A stretch of DNA of 64,000 bases from Vicinamibacterales bacterium (lineage in GTDB: Bacteria; Acidobacteriota; Vicinamibacteria; Vicinamibacterales; SCN-69-37). Shown here in pieces: positions 1,206 to 56,506 of the stretch. The notes under the pieces are model-generated. The model saw nothing but the letters and a program-made list of their open reading frames with translations, did not search any database and was not told the DNA's origin. Location: NCBI GenBank assembly GCA_030827135.1, contig JAURFE010000001.1:1331946-1395945 (forward strand), given 5' to 3'. A program made the position numbers and the translations under genes. Within the stretch, counting starts at the first letter, position 1; each line of letters begins with the position of its first letter.

Positions 1206-3221
1206 CTACCGCCCGGGTAGCGACGCGAGGATGTTGCTGAAGCCGTCCACGGCGAAGGTCCAGCGCGGAGGAATCACGACGGTCGCCTCTCCACCGGCAA
1301 CCACTGCGGGGCCGCTCGCCCGTGCTCCGGGACGCAGATCGTCCCATCGATGGAAGGCCACCTTGAACGCGCGACCGCCGAACCGGCCGGGGCGGAATAC
1401 TGATGGTGCTGGGCGATAGGCCGCTCGTGCCCGCGTGTGCGGCAGTGTCGGCTTCGCGGTCACGCCCGTGGCCGTGACACGCACGTTGACCACTTCGGTG
1501 GGTCGGTCGGGGTTCGAATATCCGTACGTGCGACCGTGCTCGCGATCGAAGGCGTCGCGATACTTCCCGGAGAGCGGCAGCGTGATTTCGAACGACTGCC
1601 CGATGTAGCGCACGTCCACGCTGACCGCAATCACCTGGCGCGAGGGACCGAACCCTTCGGCCTGAAGGGCGGCCCGTGCAGCCGCGACCAATGGCGCGCT
1701 CATCCGCTCGAGTTCTTTGACCGTCAGGTCCGCACTCGCGCGGAGCACGCTTGCTGAGTAGTCCTTAGTGACGTCGGCCACCAGCATGCCCAGCGCCGAC
1801 AACACACCGGCATGGCGCGGAGCCATGACCGTCACCATCTGCAACTGCTCGGCGATCTCGCACGCGTGCATGCCGCCGGCTCCCCCAAACGCAACCAGCG
1901 CAAACTGCCGGGGGTCGTGACCGCGTTCGACGGAGACGACCCGGATGGCGCGCTCCATGTTCGCGTTGGCCACGCGCACGATCCCTTCGGCGAGATCGGC
2001 GACAGAAAGACCTGCGCGCTTCGCCAGATCAGCCGCCACACGTTCGGTGCGCGTGCGATCGATCGCCATGCGACCGCCGAGGAAGTAGTCGGGATCGAGC
2101 CTGCCCAGCAACAGGTTGGCGTCGGTCACGGTCAATTCTTCACCGATGCCGTAACAGACCGGGCCCGGCGCCGCGCCGGCGCTGCGCGGCCCCACCCGCA
2201 ACGCGCCGCCGGTGTCGAGGTACGCGATGGACCCGCCACCGGCGCCGACGGTGTGAATATCGATCACCGGCAGACGCACGGGAAAGTCACCCACACGCGA
2301 ATCCGTCGTGCGCCCGATCACCCCATCGATCAGGCTGACGTCGGTGGACGTCCCGCCCATATCGAACCCGATGACGCGCCGCAGCTTCGCAGCCTCGGCC
2401 ACGGCCTTCGCCCCGACCACACCCGCGGCAGGCCCGGATAACACCGTCCGCACCGCCTGCGCGCGCGCCGCGGCAGCGGAAATGCATCCGCCGTTCGACT
2501 GCATGATGGACAAGCGGTCCGCAGTCCGCAGTCCCTCCTCAAGGCGCAGGAGGTAGCGGCTCATGATGGGAGTGACGTACGCATTCACGACCGTGGTGCT
2601 CCAGCGCTCGTATTCGCGATATTCAGGAAGCACCTCGTGGGATGCGCACACCGTCAGCCCGGACTGCCGCAGCCAATGCGCCACCTGCTGCTCGTGCACC
2701 GGATTGGCGTAGGCGTGCAGGAGACAGACCGCCACGATGTCCACGTGCTGGTCGTGAAGCACCCGCGCCAACTGATCCACGTCTTCTTCAACCACCGGTT
2801 CGAGCACAGCCCCTGAAGCATCCAGACGTTCGGCAATCCCGAACGTCAGGTGCGGCTCCACCAGGGGCGGCCTCGGTGCGACGAAGATGTTGTACAGCTC
2901 AGGCCGCGTCTGACGGCCGATCTTCAGGACATCTTCGAATCCTCTTGTCGCCACGAGCGCGACCCTGGCGCCCTTCCGTTCCAGCACGGCGTTCGTAGCC
3001 ACCGTCGAACCGTGCACGATCTCGAAGTCCAGAGGTCCCGAGGTCCAGGAGTCCAGGAGTCCGTTCTGGGTTCCGGGGTTCAGGGTTCGCAGACCTTCCA
3101 GGATCGACCGCGAAGGATCGTCCGGGGTCGAGCGCTGTTTGTGGACCACCAGCCCTTTGGGGGTCAGTTGGACGAAGTCGGTGAAAGTGCCGCCAGTGTC
3201 GATGCCGATGCGGGGACGCAC
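1206..3221 (-). CDS. Hydantoinase/oxoprolinase family protein (HyuA-type)
   Basis: The 671-residue protein matches the HyuA subunit fold: an N-terminal IGIDTGGTFTDF phosphate-binding segment (residues 5-16), the hallmark VHGSTVATNAVLERKG (69-84), and a second GFDMGGTSTDVSLI segment near 285. The family hydrolyses cyclic amides (N-methylhydantoin, 5-oxoproline) with ATP, or carboxylates ketones. The partner HyuB subunit is not adjacent, so the substrate is open. Residues about 46-66 differ from the family and are encoded by the genome's GTCCAGG and GGTTC-type repeats inserted in frame. The GTG start at 3219-3221 is favoured because TAGAAT lies six bases upstream, a leaderless arrangement. It heads the operon with the SGNH and carbamoyltransferase genes. 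Confidence 0.85.
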   Translation of the reverse strand: MRPRIGIDTGGTFTDFVQLTPKGLVVHKQRSTPDDPSRSILEGLRTLNPGTQNGLLDSWTSGPLDFEIVHGSTVATNAVLERKGARVALVATRGFEDVLKIGRQTRPELYNIFVAPRPPLVEPHLTFGIAERLDASGAVLEPVVEEDVDQLARVLHDQHVDIVAVCLLHAYANPVHEQQVAHWLRQSGLTVCASHEVLPEYREYERWSTTVVNAYVTPIMSRYLLRLEEGLRTADRLSIMQSNGGCISAAAARAQAVRTVLSGPAAGVVGAKAVAEAAKLRRVIGFDMGGTSTDVSLIDGVIGRTTDSRVGDFPVRLPVIDIHTVGAGGGSIAYLDTGGALRVGPRSAGAAPGPVCYGIGEELTVTDANLLLGRLDPDYFLGGRMAIDRTRTERVAADLAKRAGLSVADLAEGIVRVANANMERAIRVVSVERGHDPRQFALVAFGGAGGMHACEIAEQLQMVTVMAPRHAGVLSALGMLVADVTKDYSASVLRASADLTVKELERMSAPLVAAARAALQAEGFGPSRQVIAVSVDVRYIGQSFEITLPLSGKYRDAFDREHGRTYGYSNPDRPTEVVNVRVTATGVTAKPTLPHTRARAAYRPAPSVFRPGRFGGRAFKVAFHRWDDLRPGARASGPAVVAGGEATVVIPPRWTFAVDGFSNILASLPGR
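3027..3090. repeat. Short tandem repeats inside the hyuA-like coding sequence
   Basis: Five GTCCAGG-like units (3027-3062) are followed by GTTCTGG/GTTCCGG/GTTCAGG units (3063-3090). The same two unit types form intergenic arrays elsewhere in the window (19017-19078, 33094-33134, 47160-47396). Here they stay in frame and encode about 21 residues (TLNPGTQNGLLDSWTSGPLD) between a helix and the conserved VHGSTVATN motif of the HyuA fold. Confidence 0.7.
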
Positions 3222-3233
3222 ACGGCAATTCTA
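3222..3233 (-). promoter_or_regulatory. Leaderless-type -10 element of the hyuA-like operon
   Basis: On the minus strand TAGAAT (3228-3233) is followed by six bases and the GTG start at 3221. A -10 at this distance puts the transcription start on the first base of the start codon. No Shine-Dalgarno is present. Confidence 0.5.
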
Positions 3234-3290
3234 GTCGGGGTCACGGGGTCCAAGAGTCCAAAGGTCCAGGAGACCAGAAGTCCACCTCCA
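3234..3290. repeat. GTCCAAGA/GTCCAGGA tandem repeats upstream of hyuA-like gene
   Basis: Six imperfect copies of an 8-base unit of the form GGGTCCAA/GGTCCAGG lie directly upstream of the -10 element of the hyuA-like gene. They belong to the GGACTCCT/GTCCAGGA family seen at several gene ends in the window. Bases 3291-3450 hold no recognisable gene. Confidence 0.6.
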
Positions 3291-3579: not shown

Positions 3580-3758
3580 GAGTTATTGAGGATTGAGGAG
3601 GGAGGATTGAGGATTGGCAATTGCTGGATTGAGGATTGTGGGATTGATTGAGGGATTGAGGGATTGAGGGATTGGGGGATTGAGGGATTCAATCCCACAA
3701 TCCCTCAATCCACCAATTGCCAATCCTCAATCCTCCATTCTCAATCCTCAATAACTCG
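3580..3758. repeat. Large palindromic GATTGAG heptamer element, copy 1
   Basis: Both ends carry GAGTTATTGAGGATTGAG in inverted orientation. The arms go on as GGAGGATTGAGGATTGGC then CAATTG and differ at only a few positions, so the 179 bases can fold into one long hairpin. The centre consists of further GGGATTGA units. It carries no gene. It lies between the plus-strand terminator at 3567 and the stop codon of the minus-strand DGQHR gene at 3766. A second member is at 16922-17076. Confidence 0.8.
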
Positions 3759-11219: not shown

Positions 11220-11271
11220 GACGTCGGGGGTCTTTTTCGTCGGGGTCATGTCGAAAAAGACACCCGACGTC
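11220..11271. repeat. 20-base-pair inverted repeat between osmC-like and acyltransferase genes
   Basis: GACGTCGGGGGTCTTTTTCG (11220-11239) and its inverted copy (11252-11271) match at 19 of 20 positions and enclose a 12-base loop. The hairpin fills the space between the OsmC stop (11275) and the acyltransferase ATG (11219). It could terminate transcription through the T-run in its arm or block ribosome access to the ATG. A related AAAGACGTCGGG core occurs in the terminator loop at 52881-52916. Confidence 0.75.
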
Positions 11272-16921: not shown

Positions 16922-17076
16922 CGTTATTGAGGATTGAGGAGGGAGGATTGGCAATTGTTGGATTGTGGATTGTGGATTGATTGACGAATTGCGGCAATCC
17001 CCCCAATCAATCCCACAATCCGGCAATCGAGCAATTGCCAATCCTCCCTCCTCAATCCTCAATCCTCAATAACTCG
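16922..17076. repeat. Large palindromic GATTGAG heptamer element, copy 2
   Basis: The ends read CGTTATTGAGGATTGAGG and the inverse TCCTCAATAACTCG, with inner arms GGAGGATTGGCAATTG and CAATTGCCAATCCTCC. It shares termini and inner TTGGCAATTG with copy 1 at 3580-3758 but has a different centre. It contains no gene. Its right end provides the TGA stop for the VWFA remnant at 17066. Confidence 0.8.
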
Positions 17077-17282: not shown

Positions 17283-17364
17283 ATGTCCCCAGCCGCCCAT
17301 CCATGTGCCCAACCACCCAGCCGCCCATCCGCCCAGCCGCCCAGCCGCCCAGCCGCCCATCCGC
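17283..17364. repeat. CAGCCGCC/CATCCGCC octamer tandem repeat
   Basis: About ten 8-base units alternate CAGCCGCC and CATCCGCC, with diverged units at the left. The array occupies the promoter region of the AI-2E family transporter up to its -10 box. Shorter arrays of the family are at 11728-11753 and 16084-16121. Confidence 0.75.
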
Positions 17365-17376
17365 TAGACTGGGCGC

Positions 17377-18471
17377 ATGGCCGAAACCCATTTCCGGAAA
17401 GTGTTCCTCCTGCTCATGGTGGGAGCGCTGACGATTGGCTTGATGTATGTCCTGCGCGGCTTCCTGCTGACCATTCTTGTGTCGGCGCTGATGGCCGGGC
17501 TGCTGTATCCAGTTCACACGAATTTGACCCAACGGCTGGGCAATCGGCCCCATCTGGCCGCAGGCATCACGCTGCTGCTCATGTTCGTGCTCATCGTCGG
17601 TCCTCTGCTCGGCATCGTCAGTCTGGTCGTGAGTCAGGCGGCGTCCATCACCGACAACATCCGGCCGGTGGTTGAACGCACGATTAATGAACCCACGTAC
17701 CTCGACCGCGTCCTGCGGGATCTTCCCGGCTATGAATACGTCGCACCCTACCGGCAACAGATTCTGACGACGGCCGGCAATGTGGTGAACTCGATTGGCA
17801 GCTTCCTGATGACGTCGCTGTCGAACACCACGCGCAGCACGGTGTCGTTCCTGTTTCACTTTGTCATCACGCTCTACACAATGTTCTTTCTGCTGCTGGA
17901 TGGCCCACACATGCTGCGCGCCGTGCTTGACCATCTGCCTTTGCACACAAACGAGAAGGATCTCCTGACGGATCGCTTTGTGTCCGTCACGCGCGCCACG
18001 CTCAAGGGCACGATCATCATCGGCATCCTCCAGGGAGCCATGGCGGGGACCGGATTCTGGATCGTCGGCATTCCCAACGCCGCCTTCTGGACCGTGGTCA
18101 TGACCGTGTTATCGATCCTTCCGCTGATCGGATCCGCGCTCATCTGGGTGCCGGCGTCCATCATCCTGTTTGCGTCCGGCGCGGTCACCAAGGCGATCCT
18201 GCTCGCCGGCTTCTGTGCACTCATCGTCGGGTCGGTCGACAACGTGCTCAGGCCCCGGTTGGTCGGACATGACACCAAGATGCACGACATCGTGATTCTC
18301 TTCTCCACTCTCGGAGGCCTCGCGGTCATCGGTCCCCTCGGCTTCATCCTTGGACCTGTGCTCGCCGGACTCTTCGTCACCGGTTGGCAGATCTTCGGCA
18401 TGGCGTTTCGAGACGAACTCGTCGACGGGATGCCGCACATCCTCACGGCAGAGGGCAAGGACGCGGACTAA
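17377..18471 (+). CDS. AI-2E family transporter (PerM-like membrane protein)
   Basis: The 364-residue protein has about eight hydrophobic segments and the family's conserved C-terminal region, including a DNVLRPRLVG segment (near residue 288) and FSTLGGLAVIGPLGFILGP. Members include TqsA (autoinducer-2 export) and sodium/proton antiporter-like proteins; the substrate cannot be told from sequence. TAGACT sits exactly six bases before the ATG, with no Shine-Dalgarno. The stop TAA is followed directly by the left arm of a repeat-bounded element. Confidence 0.85.
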   Translation: MAETHFRKVFLLLMVGALTIGLMYVLRGFLLTILVSALMAGLLYPVHTNLTQRLGNRPHLAAGITLLLMFVLIVGPLLGIVSLVVSQAASITDNIRPVVERTINEPTYLDRVLRDLPGYEYVAPYRQQILTTAGNVVNSIGSFLMTSLSNTTRSTVSFLFHFVITLYTMFFLLLDGPHMLRAVLDHLPLHTNEKDLLTDRFVSVTRATLKGTIIIGILQGAMAGTGFWIVGIPNAAFWTVVMTVLSILPLIGSALIWVPASIILFASGAVTKAILLAGFCALIVGSVDNVLRPRLVGHDTKMHDIVILFSTLGGLAVIGPLGFILGPVLAGLFVTGWQIFGMAFRDELVDGMPHILTAEGKDAD

Positions 18472-18602
18472 AGGGGTCCAGGGGTCCACAGGCATTTGAT
18501 GCGTACGTGGGCGGTGCGCGGTACGCAAGTTTTTCAACACGTCCGCAGGAGTCGAAGGAATTCGGCTGCTATTCGTGGCATGGCGGTTGAATGTGCCACT
18601 GC

Positions 18603-19016
18603 ATGGGTGTGAAGCGACTCGAGGACCTTGCAGCATTCCAGTTGGCAGTCTCATTCAAGCTCGATGTGTATCGGCTTGTGCGGGAGCATCCGAAGGCTGA
18701 ACACAACTGGGCGTTCCGTGATCAGCTCTTTGGCTCTGCATCGAGCGTGGAATCAGCGATTACTGAAGGCTGGAAACGGTACAACGCTGCGGAGATGGCG
18801 ACGTTTCTCCGCTATGCGCGTGCATCGCTGGCTGAGGCTGAACGCTGGTTGCACGACGGCGTCGCGAGGGGCTACTACCCTTCCGCTGAATTGGAGTCGG
18901 CCCTTGAGCACGCCGGCCGGTGCGGCGCCGCGGTCACGAACTTGTGGAAAAGCCTTCAGCCCTTCATCAACGAAAAGAAAAAACGGGGTCGAAGGCGACA
19001 GCCTCCGACCCCGTAG
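18603..19016 (+). CDS. Four-helix-bundle protein (23S rRNA intervening-sequence/S23 type)
   Basis: The 137-residue protein matches the TIGR02436/PF05635 family: MGVKRLEDLAAFQLAVSFKL at the start and SVESAITEGWKRYNAAEM in the middle, followed by FLRYARASLAEAERW. Homologues are encoded in 23S rRNA intervening sequences and include Avd of diversity-generating retroelements; the biochemical role is unknown. No rRNA or reverse transcriptase gene is near. The last dozen residues (KKRGRRRQPPTP) are read through a strong hairpin that is a terminator on the opposite strand. A second family member is at 38877. Confidence 0.8.
   Translation: MGVKRLEDLAAFQLAVSFKLDVYRLVREHPKAEHNWAFRDQLFGSASSVESAITEGWKRYNAAEMATFLRYARASLAEAERWLHDGVARGYYPSAELESALEHAGRCGAAVTNLWKSLQPFINEKKKRGRRRQPPTP
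18978..19013 (-). terminator. Intrinsic terminator for the minus-strand gene, inside element A
   Basis: On the minus strand a 13-position stem (CGGGGTCGGAGGC and its inverse, one mismatch, loop of four bases) is followed by TTTTTTCTTTT. It should end transcripts from the secreted-protein gene at 19082. The same bases encode the end of the four-helix-bundle protein on the plus strand. Confidence 0.75.
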
Positions 19017-19078
19017 GACTCCTGGACCACTGGACCCCTGGACTCCTGTCCTCCTGGACCCTGGACTCCTGGACCCGA
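19017..19078. repeat. GGACTCCT/GGACCCCT octamer array
   Basis: Eight units of the GGACTCCT family fill the gap between the four-helix-bundle stop codon and the convergent gene's stop at 19082. Confidence 0.7.
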
Positions 19079-19081
19079 GAG

Positions 19082-19804
19082 TTACTTGGTGATGGTCAGT
19101 CCCGTGACGACGACGTCCATGTTGTGACCGATGCGAAGCCCGACGATGCCGTCGGTTGAGGGAAGTTTGCCGGCGCCGACCACGTCGGTAACCGGGTAGG
19201 TGGCGACATCGGTGCCATTGATGTTGCAGGTGATGTTGCCGCCACGCACGCTGAGGGATATGTCCTGCGTGACGGTGCCGTCAGGACCGGCCTTGCGGAT
19301 CGCTTCGTTGGCGGTGCCGCGGTTGCCGCCGAGACGGAAGATGCCGTTGGTCGCGTCAGGCGCGAAGCCGCGCATGATGAACGTCCCGTTGCCGTACGCC
19401 GAGCAATAGAGCAATGTCGCCTTCGGCGTATCGAGGTCCTTGCCGCCGATGAACAGCCCGTACGGATGCGGATGGTTGCTGTGCTTCAGGTGATTGGATT
19501 CGGCGAACGTGGCCTTCGCGGTGAAGTCGCCGTTGCCGACATGTGCGGTGTTCCAGTAGATGTTGTTCGGTCCGGCATTGATCGTGATGGTCGAGCCACT
19601 GGCAACGAACTTGGAGTCGTTGATCGACCGGCCCTGCTTAAGCGAACCGGCGTCGATGACATTGCCCTTCCATCCGGCACCGGTGATACCCCCACCCGGC
19701 ACGACGCGGTCGGGATCCCCCTGACGCGCGTCGACACTGGACGCGAGCACTCCCACGGCGAGTGCAATTGTTGCGACGGACACAAAGCGTTTGACCTGAC
19801 CCAT
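19082..19804 (-). CDS. Secreted protein of unknown function, probable concanavalin/LamG-like fold
   Basis: This 240-residue protein has a signal peptide (residues 1-26, ending VDARQ) after a very strong ribosome site (AGGAGGAG, nine bases before the ATG). The mature part is beta-rich, with GSTITINAGPNNIYWN, then a possible sugar- or ligand-binding region SNHLKHSNHPHPYGLFIGGKD and CNINGTDVATYPVT. This pattern resembles DUF1080/3-keto-disaccharide-hydrolase-like jelly-roll folds, but no catalytic motif is clear. It lies directly downstream of the glutaminyl cyclase gene, on the same strand. Confidence 0.6.
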   Translation of the reverse strand: MGQVKRFVSVATIALAVGVLASSVDARQGDPDRVVPGGGITGAGWKGNVIDAGSLKQGRSINDSKFVASGSTITINAGPNNIYWNTAHVGNGDFTAKATFAESNHLKHSNHPHPYGLFIGGKDLDTPKATLLYCSAYGNGTFIMRGFAPDATNGIFRLGGNRGTANEAIRKAGPDGTVTQDISLSVRGGNITCNINGTDVATYPVTDVVGAGKLPSTDGIVGLRIGHNMDVVVTGLTITK

Positions 19805-19832
19805 GGGCTCTACTCCTCCTGATACCTTCGCA

Positions 19833-20603
19833 CTATTTGATTGCGATCTGATAGACCTTCGGCCACTTCTTCCCGGTGACAAAAATCCGCTTGCCGGCCG
19901 CGTCGTACGCGATCCCGTTGAGCACGTCGGCGTCCGGCGTGCGCTGATAAAGCGGCCACACATTCGACAAATCGAGCCAGCCGGTAACAACGCCGGTGGA
20001 GGGGTTGATGCGGGCGATGCGATCGGTGGTCCAGACGTTGGCCCAGATTTCGCCTTCCACCCATTCCAACTCGTTCAACTGCGACACGGGACGTCCCGCG
20101 TCGGTCACGGTCAGGCCGCGCAGCACCTTCTGTGTCTTCGGATCCAGCCAGAACAGTTTCTCGCTGCCGTCACTCATCACAAGGCCGCCCTTCACGTCGT
20201 AGGCGATCCCCCAGCCTTCGGTGGCGTACGTAAACGTCCGTTTCGGGGCGAAGGTCTTGCGGTCGTAGACGAAGCCGATGTTGTGCTGCCAGGTCAGCTG
20301 CAGCAGTTCGTCACCCACAAGCGCCAGGCCTTCGGCGAAGTACTTCGCCTCCACGGCCCGGCGCTGCAGCACCTTGCCTGTGGCAATCTCGACGCGGCGT
20401 AGAGAAGACTGCCCCTCCAGTCCTGTGCTCTCGTAGAACTCGCCATCGACGTAGACCAGCCCCTGCGTGAACGCACTCGGGTCGTGGGGGAACGTCTGCA
20501 CCACCGTCACCCCGCGAACCGGCGCCGCTTGCCGCTGGGCCTGCACCGTCGGCATCACACACAGCCCCGCCACCAGGCCATACATCAGCACTCGCATTCT
20601 CAT
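19833..20603 (-). CDS. Glutaminyl-peptide cyclotransferase (plant/bacterial QC type)
   Basis: The 256-residue protein has a signal peptide and the beta-propeller glutamine cyclotransferase fold: FPHDPSAFTQGLVYVDGEFY, ESTGLEGQSSLRRVE, YATEGWGIAYDVKGGLVMSD and QLNELEWVEGEIWANVW. The enzyme turns N-terminal glutamine into pyroglutamate, protecting secreted proteins. The ATG overlaps the TGA of the SDR gene upstream (ATGA, 20600-20603), indicating translational coupling. Confidence 0.92.
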   Translation of the reverse strand: MRMRVLMYGLVAGLCVMPTVQAQRQAAPVRGVTVVQTFPHDPSAFTQGLVYVDGEFYESTGLEGQSSLRRVEIATGKVLQRRAVEAKYFAEGLALVGDELLQLTWQHNIGFVYDRKTFAPKRTFTYATEGWGIAYDVKGGLVMSDGSEKLFWLDPKTQKVLRGLTVTDAGRPVSQLNELEWVEGEIWANVWTTDRIARINPSTGVVTGWLDLSNVWPLYQRTPDADVLNGIAYDAAGKRIFVTGKKWPKVYQIAIK

Positions 20604-22409: not shown

Positions 22410-23063
22410 ATGTTCACACGACGATTCGCCATAGCCGCCGCCCTCGTCTTCACCGCGGTCGCGCTGATCCCCGCGCAGGCGCCTCCTCCTTCTGGTGCGC
22501 AAACCACCACACAACCGGCCGGCCAGCGCGGCGGTGCCGGCGGCCGCGGGAGGGGCGCGATGCAGATCATGACGCTCACCGCGCCGTGGGCGCCTGGTGC
22601 GGAGATTCCGCTCAAACACACTCAAGTGGGCGATGAGATTTCACCAGCGTTGAGCTGGACCAACGTGCCGGAGGCCGCCGGCAGCTTCGTCTTACTGGTG
22701 CACGACGTGTCGGCCCCGGTGACCCCCGGCACAGACGACCTCCTCCATTGGCTTGTGTGGAACATCCCTGGGACCTCGCGGTCGTTGCCGGAGGGCATGC
22801 CGCAGGGTCCCGAGTTGCCTGACGGCACGCGTCAGATCAGCGTGACGGGGCCGAACTATCGCGGCCCCGGCGCGGCGGCGGCAGGCCCGCCGCACGTCTA
22901 CGTGTTCGAACTGTACGCGCTCGACGGCATGCTCGACATTCCGGCGCTCGGCCCCGAGGGAGCCACTGTCGCCCAGACACGCGCCGCGGTGATGGCCGCG
23001 ATGGCCGGCCGTGTGCGCGGCAAAGCCGTGACTGCGGGCACGTTCAAACGGAAGGGTACGTAG
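22410..23063 (+). CDS. YbhB/YbcL-type PEBP (Raf kinase inhibitor-like) protein, secreted
   Basis: The 217-residue protein has a signal peptide (residues 1-22), a Gly/Arg-rich linker and the bacterial PEBP domain: ISPALSWTNVPEAAGSFVLL, VHDVSAPV, LLHWLVWNIPG, and GPPHVYVFELYALDG. Members bind small ligands or inhibit proteases; here the target is unknown. A GTG at 22401 is an alternative start. The TAG stop lies inside a CGTAGGGC palindromic repeat. Confidence 0.88.
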   Translation: MFTRRFAIAAALVFTAVALIPAQAPPPSGAQTTTQPAGQRGGAGGRGRGAMQIMTLTAPWAPGAEIPLKHTQVGDEISPALSWTNVPEAAGSFVLLVHDVSAPVTPGTDDLLHWLVWNIPGTSRSLPEGMPQGPELPDGTRQISVTGPNYRGPGAAAAGPPHVYVFELYALDGMLDIPALGPEGATVAQTRAAVMAAMAGRVRGKAVTAGTFKRKGT

Positions 23064-23120
23064 GGCCCGCTGAACTGCAGCGGGCCACCCATGGCGCGCT
23101 CAAGTTCAGCGCGCCCTACG
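23059..23120. repeat. Pair of CGTAGGGC palindromic repeats in inverted orientation
   Basis: CGTAGGGCCCGCTGAACTGC (23059 onward) and the inverse copy GGCGCGCTCAAGTTCAGCGC with GCCCTACG (ending 23120) face each other between two convergent genes. The first copy supplies the TAG stop of the PEBP gene. Confidence 0.7.
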
Positions 23121-23166
23121 TACCCAGCGCACCCTACGCAGACCCGTCTCTACGTCTCTCTCTGGA

Positions 23167-33028: not shown

Positions 33029-33134
33029 GGCGCGCTCAAGTTCAGCGCGCCCTGCGTCTCGCTGGCGCGCTACAACCCAGCGCGCCCTACGTACTTCTGG
33101 ACTCCTGGACCCTGGACCCTGGACCCTGGACCCT
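33029..33134. repeat. GCGCGC palindromes plus CTGGACC heptamer array at permease 3' end
   Basis: Two inverted-repeat units (GGCGCGCTCAAGTTCAGCGC with GCCCTGCG; GGCGCGCTACAACCCAGCGC with GCCCTACG) are followed by CTGGACTCCTGGACC and four CTGGACC units. The array ends at 33134, next to the permease stop codon at 33135. Confidence 0.7.
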
Positions 33135-38766: not shown

Positions 38767-39343
38767 GACGCGCCGGGGTTGAGCGCGCCGGGGAACCTTG
38801 AACCAATGTTCATGGTTCATCGGTTCATGGTTCATGGTGCCGTTCTGGGTTCACGGTTCTGGGTGATGGGTTCGGGGTGCGCGGTGCATTGCCCGCGGTT
38901 GGCACAAGGTGTGCTATTGCTGGCGCCGTTGGAGCGAGACGGTACGAGGAACTTGATGCCTGGCAACTGAGTCGTCAGCTGGCTGACGAAGTCGCGAAAG
39001 TGCTCGCTACTCGGAGACCAGCGGAGGACTTCGATCTTTTCAATCAGCTCAGGTCCGCATCGAGGTCGAGTTGCCGGAACATCGCTGAAGGGTTTGGGCG
39101 CTTCTACCCGAGAGAATTCCGCCAGTTCTTGCTCATTGCTCGAGGCTCTCTCCTCGAGACTGGGGAACATTTGCGAGATGCCAGAGCCGCCGGCTGGATC
39201 GACGCGTCGCGCGAGGCAGAGTTGGTGCGCCTGCGTGACCGCGTACCGCGCACCCAGAACCCGGCACCCAGAACCCGGCACGCAGAACCACGCACCACGA
39301 ACCCAGAACAGCACCATGAACCATGAACCGATGAACCATGAAC
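38767..39343. mobile_element. Inverted-repeat-bounded element carrying a four-helix-bundle gene (element B)
   Basis: Arms of 45 bases at 38808-38852 and 39299-39343 are inverted copies matching at 44 of 45 positions. The match continues imperfectly inwards with TTCTGGGTGC-type units to about 38887 and 39245. The arms consist of GGTTCAT heptamers followed by GTTCTGG units. Between them is one gene for a four-helix-bundle protein. The right arm ends exactly at the base before the stop codon (39344) of the convergent epimerase gene. Bases 38767-38800 hold a diverged GCGCGCC palindrome. Mobility is inferred. Confidence 0.55.
38877..39326 (+). CDS. Four-helix-bundle protein (S23/IVP type), second copy
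   Basis: The core runs RRYEELDAWQLSRQLADEVA, FNQLRSASRSSCRNIAEGFG and RFYPREFRQFLLIARGSLLE, matching the same TIGR02436/PF05635 family as the 18603 protein, but with only distant similarity to it. The true start is uncertain: the GTG at 38877 lies in the left repeat arm and about 20 residues precede the conserved region. The last 30 residues (PRTQNPAPRTRHAEPRTTNP and on) are simply a translation of the right repeat arm. This indicates that gene and arms are parts of one unit. Confidence 0.75.
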   Translation: MRGALPAVGTRCAIAGAVGARRYEELDAWQLSRQLADEVAKVLATRRPAEDFDLFNQLRSASRSSCRNIAEGFGRFYPREFRQFLLIARGSLLETGEHLRDARAAGWIDASREAELVRLRDRVPRTQNPAPRTRHAEPRTTNPEQHHEP

Positions 39344-40342
39344 CTAGAGCCTGAACCCCTCCGCGAGCGGATCGTCCGGGCTCACGATGAACGTATGCTC
39401 CCCGGTGATGGACGCAGACCCCGTCAGCTCGGGAACGATCGCCTGATGGTCCCCGACCGCCGTGCGTGCTAACACGCGCGCGCGGAAGGAAGTGCCGATG
39501 ATGCTCTCGTGCACAAACGGCACGGCGTCGTCGACCAACCCCATCGCATCGAGCACCGCCAGCACGGCGCAGGTGCCGGTGCCGCATGGCGAGCGGTCGA
39601 CCTCGTGGTCCGCGAAGACTGTTACATTGCGCAGGTGTGCGTCCGGTGCGGACGGCGGTCCCGTGAAGATCGTGCCGTAAATTCCGGTCAGCCCAGCCTC
39701 AAGGGGATGCACCACCGGAATGAGCCGTTCAACCTCGCGCGCGATCAACATGCCCACGCGCTTCAGGTCGCCAAGGCGTTCCGGCACCACCGCCAGACCG
39801 GCCGACTCGGCATCCACCACCGCATAAAACGCGCCGCCAAACGCCACATCCACAAGCAGATCGCGACCGGCGACAGAGACCGGCAGCGCCGCGGCGTACA
39901 CAAACGACGGCACATTCCGGAACGACACCTCCTGCACACGCCCGTCGCTCATCGTCGCGCGCGCATGGATCTGGCCCGCCGGCGCGTCGAACACGAGGGT
40001 CCTCCGGCCGTCGGCGTGCGTCACCAGGCCGCGTTCGAACGCGATGGTCGTCACCGCGATGATGCCGTGGCCACACATCGTGCTGTAACCCTCGTTGTGC
40101 ATGAACAGGACGCCCACATCCGAGTCCAGCCGTTCCGGCACCGTCAGAAGGGCGCCGTACATGTCCGCGTGGCCCCGGGGTTCGAACATGAGAATCCGGC
40201 GCAGATGGTCCTGCGCCTCTCGCGCAAACGCCCTGCGCTCCAGCATCGTCGCCCCCTCAGGGGCTGGCCAGCCGTCCACGATGAGCCGGAGCGGTTCTCC
40301 TGCCGTATGGGCGTCAATCGTGCGTAAGATGTGGGGCGTCAT
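39344..40342 (-). CDS. Proline racemase family protein, probable 4-hydroxyproline 2-epimerase
   Basis: The 332-residue enzyme has the family start HILRTIDAHTAGEPLRL and both catalytic cysteines: NEGYSTMCGHGIIAV and DRSPCGTGTCAVLAV. Trans-3-hydroxyproline dehydratases replace the second cysteine by threonine, so an epimerase/racemase is favoured. It would interconvert trans-4-hydroxy-L-proline and cis-4-hydroxy-D-proline. The ATG overlaps the ATG of the divergent ornithine-cyclodeaminase-like gene by two bases (CATG at 40340-40343). AACAAT is six bases upstream of the ATG. Confidence 0.88.
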   Translation of the reverse strand: MTPHILRTIDAHTAGEPLRLIVDGWPAPEGATMLERRAFAREAQDHLRRILMFEPRGHADMYGALLTVPERLDSDVGVLFMHNEGYSTMCGHGIIAVTTIAFERGLVTHADGRRTLVFDAPAGQIHARATMSDGRVQEVSFRNVPSFVYAAALPVSVAGRDLLVDVAFGGAFYAVVDAESAGLAVVPERLGDLKRVGMLIAREVERLIPVVHPLEAGLTGIYGTIFTGPPSAPDAHLRNVTVFADHEVDRSPCGTGTCAVLAVLDAMGLVDDAVPFVHESIIGTSFRARVLARTAVGDHQAIVPELTGSASITGEHTFIVSPDDPLAEGFRL

Positions 40343-47159: not shown

Positions 47160-47396
47160 GGAACCTTGAACCAGAACCTTGAACCCTCGCATCCGGTTCA
47201 TGGTTCATCGGTTCATGGTTCAGCGGTGCCGTTCTGGGTTCTGGGCTTCTCGGGTTCTTGGTTCAGAGTTCGGGGTTCGCCGCAGGTCGCTTTGGGCCCT
47301 GCGGCGGATCTGCCAACTCCGGGTGCCGCACCCAGAACCAGGAACCCTGAACGCCAGAACCCGGGCCCCAGGAACAGCACCGATGAACCATGAACC
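47160..47396. repeat. Gene-less inverted-repeat element of the GGTTCAT family (element C)
   Basis: The left arm has AACCTTGAACC units, then GGTTCATGGTTCATCGG, GTGCCGTTCTGGGTTC and further GGTTC units to about 47277. The right arm (about 47328-47396) is the inverse, ending CACCGATGAACCATGAACC. The structure matches element B (38767-39343), but the 50-base centre holds no gene. The right end touches the stop codon (47397) of the convergent gene. The left side starts 17 bases after the stop at 47142. Confidence 0.75.
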
Positions 47397-55157: not shown

Positions 55158-56438
55158 ATGCCCCTGTCGCGACTCGGGTTTTGCGTCGGCGTCGGCCTGC
55201 TGATCTGTCTGCCCTCCCGCGTGGCCAGTCAACAGTCGCCGCCCCAACAGCCTCCCAGCCAACCGATGTTCCGCAGCACGACGGCTCTCGTCGAGGTGGA
55301 CCTGATCGTCCACGACCGCCGGGGAGAGTTTGTGCCCGGACTCAAGGCTGAGGATCTGCAGCTCTTCGAAGACGGGCGGTCGCAGAAGATCGAACAGTTC
55401 TACATGGTGACCCACGAGCGTGGGGGCCAGTTGTTTCCTCAGACAGGAGACTCTCTGGTCGCGCCGGAGGATCGTGCCAGGCGGATCTTTGTTGTGCTCT
55501 TTGATGAAGCGCACATGGACCACGAGGGGCTGCAGCGGGCCAAAGTCGGCGCGGAACAATTCGTTCGCGACAACATCGGCCCTGGCGACTTTGGCGGCGT
55601 CTTTCACAACAATCAGATGCACAACAGCCGGTTGACGACCAGCAGGGCGGAACTCATCGGCGCCATTCAGGCTGTGGAACATGGCTTCGAGAACAGGCAG
55701 GCCTTGCTGTCGACGTTCCGCGAGTTCCCTCGTGTTCCGGGCGAAATCGACGCGCTTCGCATCGCCGACGGGAGCCTGGAGGTCGTCAGTCGCATCACCG
55801 CCGAGGTCTGCAAGGACGATCCGTTCAATTGCCAGCTCAACGGCGGCGCGAATCAGGTGGAGAACCTGATTCAGCAGAAGGCCAAACTCTACGTGCGGCA
55901 GGCCCGCATTCTCACGTTCAACACGCTGCAGAATCTGCGGTACGTCGTGAATCGGCTGAGCCGCATTCCCGGTCGCAAGACCGTGGTGTTTCTCTCCGAA
56001 GGTTTTTTTGTCGAGGAATCACGGCAGGATCTGATCACCATCGCCGCGGAGGCCGCCCGGGCCGGTACCGTGATTTACAACATCGACTCACGCGGTCTCG
56101 TCGGGTCGCCCAGTGCCACTCCGGACGTCATCCGTCCCGAAGCGGGCCGCTCCACCGCGTGGGACACGGGCGAGGACGGTCCGCTTATCCTGGCTTCCGC
56201 GACCGGCGGCCTTCGCTTCCGCAACATCGACGACATGTCGCGCGCGTTTAATCTCGTCGTGCGCGATACCAGCACCTACTACGTGATTGGCTACCAGCCG
56301 GACAATCCGGCGATGGATGGCACGTTCCGCAAGATCGAAGTGAAGCCGGTGCCATCCGGCCTCCGCGTGCGGTCCCGACAGGGCTACCGCGCCGTGGCAC
56401 TCCCGCCGATGGAACCCATCCGCGGCGGGGGCACGTAG
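55158..56438 (+). CDS. VWFA-related secreted protein
   Basis: The 426-residue protein has a signal peptide, the N-terminal module RSTTALVEVDLIVHDRRGEF with LQLFEDGRSQKIEQFYM, and a VWFA-like domain with a degenerate metal site (FVVLFDEAHMDHEG). It ends with SGLRVRSRQGYRAVALPPME, the end typical of this Acidobacteria family. The ribosome site is GAGGAGC. Its TAG stop lies in a CGTAGGGCGCGC palindromic repeat. Confidence 0.82.
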   Translation: MPLSRLGFCVGVGLLICLPSRVASQQSPPQQPPSQPMFRSTTALVEVDLIVHDRRGEFVPGLKAEDLQLFEDGRSQKIEQFYMVTHERGGQLFPQTGDSLVAPEDRARRIFVVLFDEAHMDHEGLQRAKVGAEQFVRDNIGPGDFGGVFHNNQMHNSRLTTSRAELIGAIQAVEHGFENRQALLSTFREFPRVPGEIDALRIADGSLEVVSRITAEVCKDDPFNCQLNGGANQVENLIQQKAKLYVRQARILTFNTLQNLRYVVNRLSRIPGRKTVVFLSEGFFVEESRQDLITIAAEAARAGTVIYNIDSRGLVGSPSATPDVIRPEAGRSTAWDTGEDGPLILASATGGLRFRNIDDMSRAFNLVVRDTSTYYVIGYQPDNPAMDGTFRKIEVKPVPSGLRVRSRQGYRAVALPPMEPIRGGGT

Positions 56439-56506
56439 GGCGCGCTGAACTTGAGCGCGCCAACAGACCGCCGCCGCGGGTTCATGGTTCATCGGTTCAT
56501 GGTTCA
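56434..56506. repeat. CGTAGGGCGCGC palindrome followed by GGTTCAT heptamers
   Basis: CGTAGGGCGCGCTGAACTTG with AGCGCGCC (56434-56461) supplies the stop codon of the VWFA gene. GGGTTCATGGTTCATCGG and further units follow (56478-56506). Two repeat families thus lie side by side between convergent genes, ahead of the receptor's terminator. Confidence 0.7.

Follow-up and report, generated by a model that had tools for sequence, protein, structure and literature searches.

The intergenic gap at 18472-19079 of the window (64,000 nucleotides, G000:C11:1331946-1395945, from the 3.24-Mb genome G000) holds a compact element in which a PF05635 gene stands between inverted tandem arrays of one short unit. 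PF05635 genes of many other bacteria and of archaea lie inside palindromes of the same architecture, the unit corresponds to the protein lineage at unlinked sites, and a cognate family of gene-less hairpins and arrays is dispersed through G000. Taken together, these features suggest a class of mobile or self-spreading element that has not been described before. In the open-access literature, no paper was found that connects PF05635 with these repeats.

An earlier note on this DNA had reported here a second four-helix-bundle gene, bounded by inverted repeats and inserted between two convergent stop codons, and the closer analysis bore out that description. The product of 18591-19016 matched PF05635 in Pfam (E 2.1e-18, 66.9 bits against a cut-off of 33.8) and TIGR02436, 'four helix bundle protein', in NCBIfam (66.6 bits against a cut-off of 24). 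The arrays at 18472-18489 and 19016-19076 run in opposite orientation: the 8-mer of the 3′ arm is GGACTCCT/GGACCCCT, whose reverse complement, the reading of the - strand, is AGGAGTCC/AGGGGTCC, and a short GGGGTCC array forms the 5′ arm. The first base of the 5′ arm directly follows the TAA of the upstream gene and the 3′ arm ends about 5 nt short of the stop of the downstream gene, so that the two arms and the PF05635 gene occupy the gap between the convergent stops, from 18471 to 19082. With at most two mismatches, GGGGTCCAGGGGTCC has 12 occurrences in the window where 0.29 would be expected, and five of the 12 fall in the two arms, in the predicted opposite orientations. Ordinary tandem slippage was considered as the source of the 3′ arm and set aside, as the copies elsewhere in G000 speak against it. 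The 5′ arm consists of only two copies and the inverted match is accordingly weak: its score of 30 was reached by about 7% of randomly swapped flanks, and the locus therefore needs its class to convince. The match is credible because five relatives (L040, L044, L039, L120 and L121) have like arms and because the class-wide test was decisive.

Table. Position, strand and nature of the element, its neighbours and the repeats discussed in the text (window coordinates unless a contig is named).
Feature	Position	Strand	Remarks
5′ arm	18472..18489	+	two copies of AGGGGTCC(A), sequence AGGGGTCCAGGGGTCCA; repeat search
PF05635 / TIGR02436 four-helix-bundle protein gene, 141 aa	18591..19016	+	HMM and fold searches
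GC-rich hairpin ACGGGGTCGAAGGCGACAGCCTCCGACCCCGT, terminator-like	18983..19014	+	overlaps 3′ end of the PF05635 gene
3′ arm, about 7.8 copies of the 8-mer	19016 to about 19076-19079	-	repeat search
Upstream neighbour, membrane protein, by sequence AI-2E-type transporter	17377..18471	+	convergent with 19082-19990
Downstream neighbour, secreted protein	19082..19990	-	convergent
Second gene-bearing element, GGTTCAT unit	38808..39344	+	PF05635 gene about 38946-39326
Gene-less GGTTCAT hairpin	47161..47396	.	orthologous to gene-bearing L042 of G004
Gene-less hairpin, ATTGAGG unit	3580..3757	.	unit of PF05635 locus L003
Gene-less hairpin, ATTGAGG unit	16926..17070	.	G004 orthologous site is a GTGCTGAG-unit hairpin
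Gene-less array, GTCCAGG unit	33097..33134	-	unit of the 18591 element
Gene-less GTCCAGG-type arrays	3023..3284	+	3023-3062 and 3237-3284
Single remaining GGTTCAT arm	56479..56506	+	G004 site two-armed, 0.5 kb interior
Gene-less array, TGGGCGG unit	17288..17364	-	unit of PF05635 locus L004
Hairpin family GTACGTAGGGCSCGCTGAACT...	23054-23125, 56420-56479; C11 18814, 221867; C33 215634		L213
Hairpin family AAAAAGACGTCGGGTGTCTTTTT	11220-11271; C33 62503, 97272, 107882		L212

To establish whether inverted arms belong to the class, 131 PF05635 loci were gathered from G000, its genus and its order, all were oriented, and the 500 nt upstream of each gene were aligned with the reverse-complemented 500 nt on its downstream side, with a score of at least 34 as the threshold. 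Own flank pairs reached it at 109 of 125 loci of the order, compared with 3.1% when flanks were swapped between loci (about 15,500 pairs) and 6.8% when the swap was made within the same genome. Within G000 itself, where the earlier note had proposed checking every PF05635 gene, all six proved to have inverted arrays of their own unit, the same plan with different units; five of them scored at least 34, the 18591 gene being the sixth, as against 7 of 689 other genes (1%). A seventh element, missed by the Pfam search, lies at G000:C11:205069-205423, where inverted GTTCCGAA arms enclose a decayed PF05635 gene that a home-made profile matched at E 0.005. The gene chosen for comparison in the earlier note does have an open frame starting at 38877, but its PF05635 domain begins only at about 38946. 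Matching arms were also found at 57 of 74 usable loci (2.2% of swapped pairs) in a cross-phylum sample that takes in ANME-1 and Methanophagales archaea, Planctomycetota, Chloroflexota, Bacteroidota, Brucella and Patescibacteria and overlaps the order sample in a few loci, and at 22 of 29 loci (2.5% swapped) in Xanthomonadales. Arm units are mostly 7 nt long, and some measure 8-10 or 13-14 nt.

Elements sit close to genes, at a median distance of 1-3 nt from the neighbouring ORF. The convergent-stop setting, true of the 18591 element, is weaker as a rule: about a third of the elements (39/107) lie between convergent genes, an enrichment over 21% (p 1.8e-4), and 8/107 between divergent genes against 23%, a depletion, these counts being approximate since they come from a simple codon-usage gene caller. 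Outside the order, elements were seen between guaB and guaA and between accB and accC (names by sequence inspection).

The suggestion that protein lineage and repeat unit may co-vary held at non-orthologous sites as well, with the orientation of the unit to the gene always the same, and it reached beyond the window, the unit drifting gradually along protein relatives. When locus pairs with conserved flanks were left out, the share of pairs with matching arms rose with protein similarity from 0.5 through 4, 9 and 23 to 80%, the last bin holding five pairs only, and matches in the opposite orientation stayed near zero in all bins. The Mantel correlation between protein similarity and unit was 0.28, a value that none of 999 permutations attained, and the nearest non-orthologous protein neighbour had the same unit in 33 of 102 cases, where 3.3 were expected. 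The units of the six proteins closest to the 18591 protein are GGTCCAGG, GTCCAGGG, GGTCCGC, GTCCAGGG, a short CAGTCCGCTGGT match and GTCCAAGG, and all contain GTCC. Near-identical proteins at different sites had the same unit in three instances (L037/L042, L092/L104 and L075/L087). Part of the correlation could be linkage by descent within a lineage. A flip in the orientation of L040 and L044 relative to L002 at one site was considered; these two loci lie at a neighbouring site, so no inversion is claimed.

Repeats lacking a gene were looked for by a palindrome scan of 846 kb of G000 and an array survey of 965 kb (contigs C11 and C33), sampled by stretches. The scan revealed gene-less hairpins made of the units of PF05635 loci, and in the survey 70 of 107 intergenic short-period arrays (65%) matched the arms of G000's own PF05635 elements, whereas 0-22 of the same arrays (0-21%) matched arms from each of eight other genomes. 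Many gene-less arrays consist of one arm only. The GGTTCAT unit was searched for in seven genomes of the genus and had 57 hits in G000, 56 in its sister species G004 and none in the five other species; the GGTTCAT protein clade is likewise present in G000 and G004 and absent from those five. Long matches to the GGACTCCT unit were confined to G000 among the genus genomes. The GGGGCAATG unit gave a more mixed picture: genomes in which no cognate gene was detected had 1-24 hits, most of them short. A unit flanking its PF05635 gene in Dokdonella had 87 hits at home and none in four unrelated genomes, and one from Vreelandella had 28 in its own genome, 8 in a Flavobacterium with a similar unit and none in three others.

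The history of individual sites was followed along about 130 kb collinear with G004. The hairpin at 47161-47396 keeps a 28-nt remnant of the gene end found in its gene-bearing counterpart and has therefore arisen by internal deletion. At the 18591 site, the upstream neighbour is conserved in G004 and is there without a PF05635 gene; what had been a candidate for a clean empty site turned out to hold a GTGCTGAG-unit hairpin between the same stops. Six orthologous sites of the two species have different units and six the same unit: either units are replaced in place or limited permissive intergenic sites are reused. Of 19 orthologous sites that are conserved on either side of the element, 10 have arms that are unlike between species and matched within the element, hence the two arms change together. 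No insertion with a clean empty site and a target duplication was resolved, and orthologous sites of the sister species often carry another unit, not nothing; both points count against a mobile-element reading.

The AF2 model of the 141-aa protein (pLDDT 93.8) had as its top folds 2GSC (Xcc0516; TMt 0.90, E 4e-5) and 2RLD, followed by Avd (TM 0.65/0.84; 4DWL and 8UB7, the latter a ribonucleoprotein of diversity-generating retroelements, DGR). The protein is thus predicted to be a four-helix bundle like Xcc0516. One relative, L008, matched the NCBIfam Avd model at 1e-11, below the cut-off of that model. The ratio dN/dS was about 0.18 between the 18591 gene and L040 and mostly 0.03-0.18 among related PF05635 genes, at orthologous and different sites alike, in a set that includes three pairs with saturated dS. 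Judged by these ratios, PF05635 genes are under purifying selection, and the proteins are therefore working ones. PF05635 is not known to have a catalytic site.

We give an even chance to the explanation that the PF05635 protein maintains and spreads its cognate tandem-repeat hairpin, in a REPIN/RAYT-like layout and with no known nuclease. The compact element, one member of a widespread class, is a PF05635 gene enclosed by a palindrome, each arm of which repeats a 7-10-nt unit in tandem. We infer that each PF05635 protein, dedicated to its own unit, would bind arrays of it, perhaps as a pentamer with one unit per subunit. Relatives form a pentameric ring (PMC4990558, citing Xcc0516); matching a pentamer and a 7-nt period to one unit per subunit is speculation by analogy. 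The bound protein would help such palindromes, gene-bearing or gene-less, to be copied or inserted into intergenic sites near gene ends. The chemistry would be that of host replication or repair, because PF05635 is without a known active site and the genome without a detectable reverse transcriptase. Gene-bearing copies would be autonomous, and gene-less hairpins and single arms of the same unit would be derivatives acted on in trans. In favour of this explanation are the architecture, the correspondence of unit and protein at unlinked sites, the cognate gene-less family in G000, the in-place loss of the gene at 47161-47396, the matched change of both arms and the purifying selection. Against it stand, besides the history of the orthologous sites, the want of a known catalytic site, the GGGGCAATG hits in genomes with no detected cognate gene, the many one-armed arrays and the possible share of linkage by descent in the correlation. 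Since sequence is enough to assign a unit to each protein, the specificity of binding and the switching of units can be tested directly, with hundreds of natural protein-unit pairs to draw on.

The main rival remains a role in RNA, in which transcribed arrays form stems around the PF05635 message and other gene ends, the protein binds them and sets termination, processing or stability, and the arrays spread by slippage and recombination, not through the protein. Such a role would suit the position of the elements right beside stop codons and their preference for convergent gene pairs, and the element RNA did fold better than shuffles (z -4.5 at 18591, -10.9 for the 38.8 kb element). The intervening sequences (IVS) of 23S rRNA, which RNase III excises, encode relatives (PMC4990558), the related Avd belongs to a ribonucleoprotein (8UB7), and Xanthomonas heptamer arrays are mostly transcribed (PMC4692102). 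However, selection on a sense-RNA stem would leave more G-U than A-C mismatches between the arms, and this was not seen on the sense strand (165 vs 188; 51 vs 93), so that such selection is unsupported; moreover, an RNA role alone leaves unexplained the tens of dispersed copies of precisely the cognate unit. We regard it as unlikely on balance.

The 23S rRNA IVS (S23p / 23S_rRNA_IVP) are also a close precedent in layout, being small, sporadic elements that contain a PF05635 gene and are bounded by inverted repeats. As in an IVS, the ends of the 18591 element are inverted repeats that form a predicted stem with the ORF in the loop. In the IVS of Coxiella, tandem heptamers, (GACAGAT)n, immediately precede the ORF (PMC4990558). 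In contrast to an IVS, the 18591 element lies between two protein-coding genes, outside rRNA, and PF05635 elements in general are intergenic, occupy many sites, have tandem lineage-specific arms and are accompanied by gene-less families.

A purely mutational origin, in which replication slippage and template switching extend and correct the palindromes, PF05635 genes fell into them by accident of position and descent accounts for the rest, agrees with the concerted arm change at orthologous sites, as palindrome correction would yield, and with the different units at the same site in sister species. We nevertheless find it improbable: it explains neither why PF05635 is the gene enclosed from archaea to Bacteroidota, nor the purifying selection on PF05635, nor the cognate families across unlinked sites, and the tracking of unit by protein at non-orthologous sites disfavours it too.

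A driver of another kind would be an HUH (RAYT) transposase or other IS enzyme that moves the arrays as REP-like palindromes, with PF05635 as a passenger. REPINs resemble the elements in layout and intergenic bias (PMC3116915), and G000 has two Y1 transposases. The two genes serve as an internal control: each is flanked by different palindromes of its own (AAAAAGACGTCGGG... and GTACGTAGGGC...), no tandem unit borders either gene, and on this ground the proposal is rejected as quite improbable; a passenger, besides, would not track the unit by lineage. The elements do share with REPIN/RAYT systems a single gene, flanking palindromes, gene-less copies of that repeat scattered through the same genome and a correspondence of protein and repeat. 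They differ from them in that the PF05635 four-helix bundle is unrelated to HUH nucleases, the 18591 element has no Y1 transposase, the arms are tandem arrays of 7-10 nt with many unit families per genome, and the RAYTs of G000 carry other palindromes. Unlike a MITE or IS with terminal inverted repeats, the gene-bearing 18591 element is without a known transposase fold.

Retro-mobility, with PF05635 as an Avd-like partner of a reverse transcriptase acting in trans, would accord with the Avd fold match and the sub-cut-off hit of L008 but is very improbable, as no PF00078 reverse transcriptase was found in G000 (rated 100% complete) by a search that was positive in three control genomes and could miss a too-divergent enzyme. 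Avd shares the fold (4DWL, 8UB7) and a remote sequence similarity with the 141-aa protein; the repeats here are inverted tandem arrays, not the template and variable repeats of DGRs.

The explanation by a protein that spreads its own hairpin can be widened to repeats already described. Heptamer repeats (STRR and the GGGAATC type) have been reported as GGGAATC in Xanthomonas and GGGGA(C/T)T in Nostoc (PMC4692102) and as TAACTGA in Beggiatoaceae (PMC4679880). Arrays of PF05635 units are, like these, tandem, about 7 nt in period, intergenic and dispersed, and heptamer repeats, including the cyanobacterial STRR, are found near stop codons and often as inverted pairs (70 in X. campestris). Those papers found no mobile element and tied no protein to the repeats, whereas here a cognate gene is identified: the Xanthomonadales PF05635 loci L303 and L317 have GGGAATC arms, and other loci, L007 and L262, have arms of the TCAGTTA type. 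L303 and L317 would supply a source for the Xanthomonas GGGAATC arrays. More tentatively, and with somewhat less than an even chance, we propose that PF05635 marks a class of mobile elements in bacteria and archaea that spreads lineage-specific tandem palindromes while encoding no transposase, nuclease or reverse transcriptase. Its non-autonomous copies would be the heptamer arrays known from Xanthomonas, Beggiatoaceae and cyanobacteria, and the 23S rRNA IVS would be a branch settled in rRNA. If this is true, the large PF05635 family of unknown function, present in many phyla, would gain a function-bearing context, and the heptameric repeats long reported in several phyla would gain a source. 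It would also revive the idea of 1993 that the IVS ORF serves its own mobility, an early proposal related in PMC4990558.

Some further repeats were recorded along the way. Hairpins with different units occupy the same site at G000:C11:1426382-1426491 and G004:C1:101213-101398, and in both species they apparently reach the signal-peptide region of the downstream gene, with repeat units translated. Longer complex units with inner palindromes, for example CTGGGGAACGCGCGCTTTGCGCG, occur at L309 (Xanthomonadales), L034, L059 and L096, possibly another grade of the same design. The downstream flank of L259 (Vreelandella sedimenti) consists of hundreds of bases of nearly perfect ACTCACA units adjoining the PF05635 gene, in contrast to the usual degenerate arrays. 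A 10-mer tandem family, CACCCAACCT/CACCCAACCC, recurs intergenically in the 965 kb of G000 surveyed, where no PF05635 cognate was found for it. Finally, the hairpin family GTACGTAGGGCSCGCTGAACT... flanks the Y1 (RAYT) gene L213 as an ordinary REP/RAYT pair in G000, and the family AAAAAGACGTCGGGTGTCTTTTT flanks the other Y1 gene, L212.
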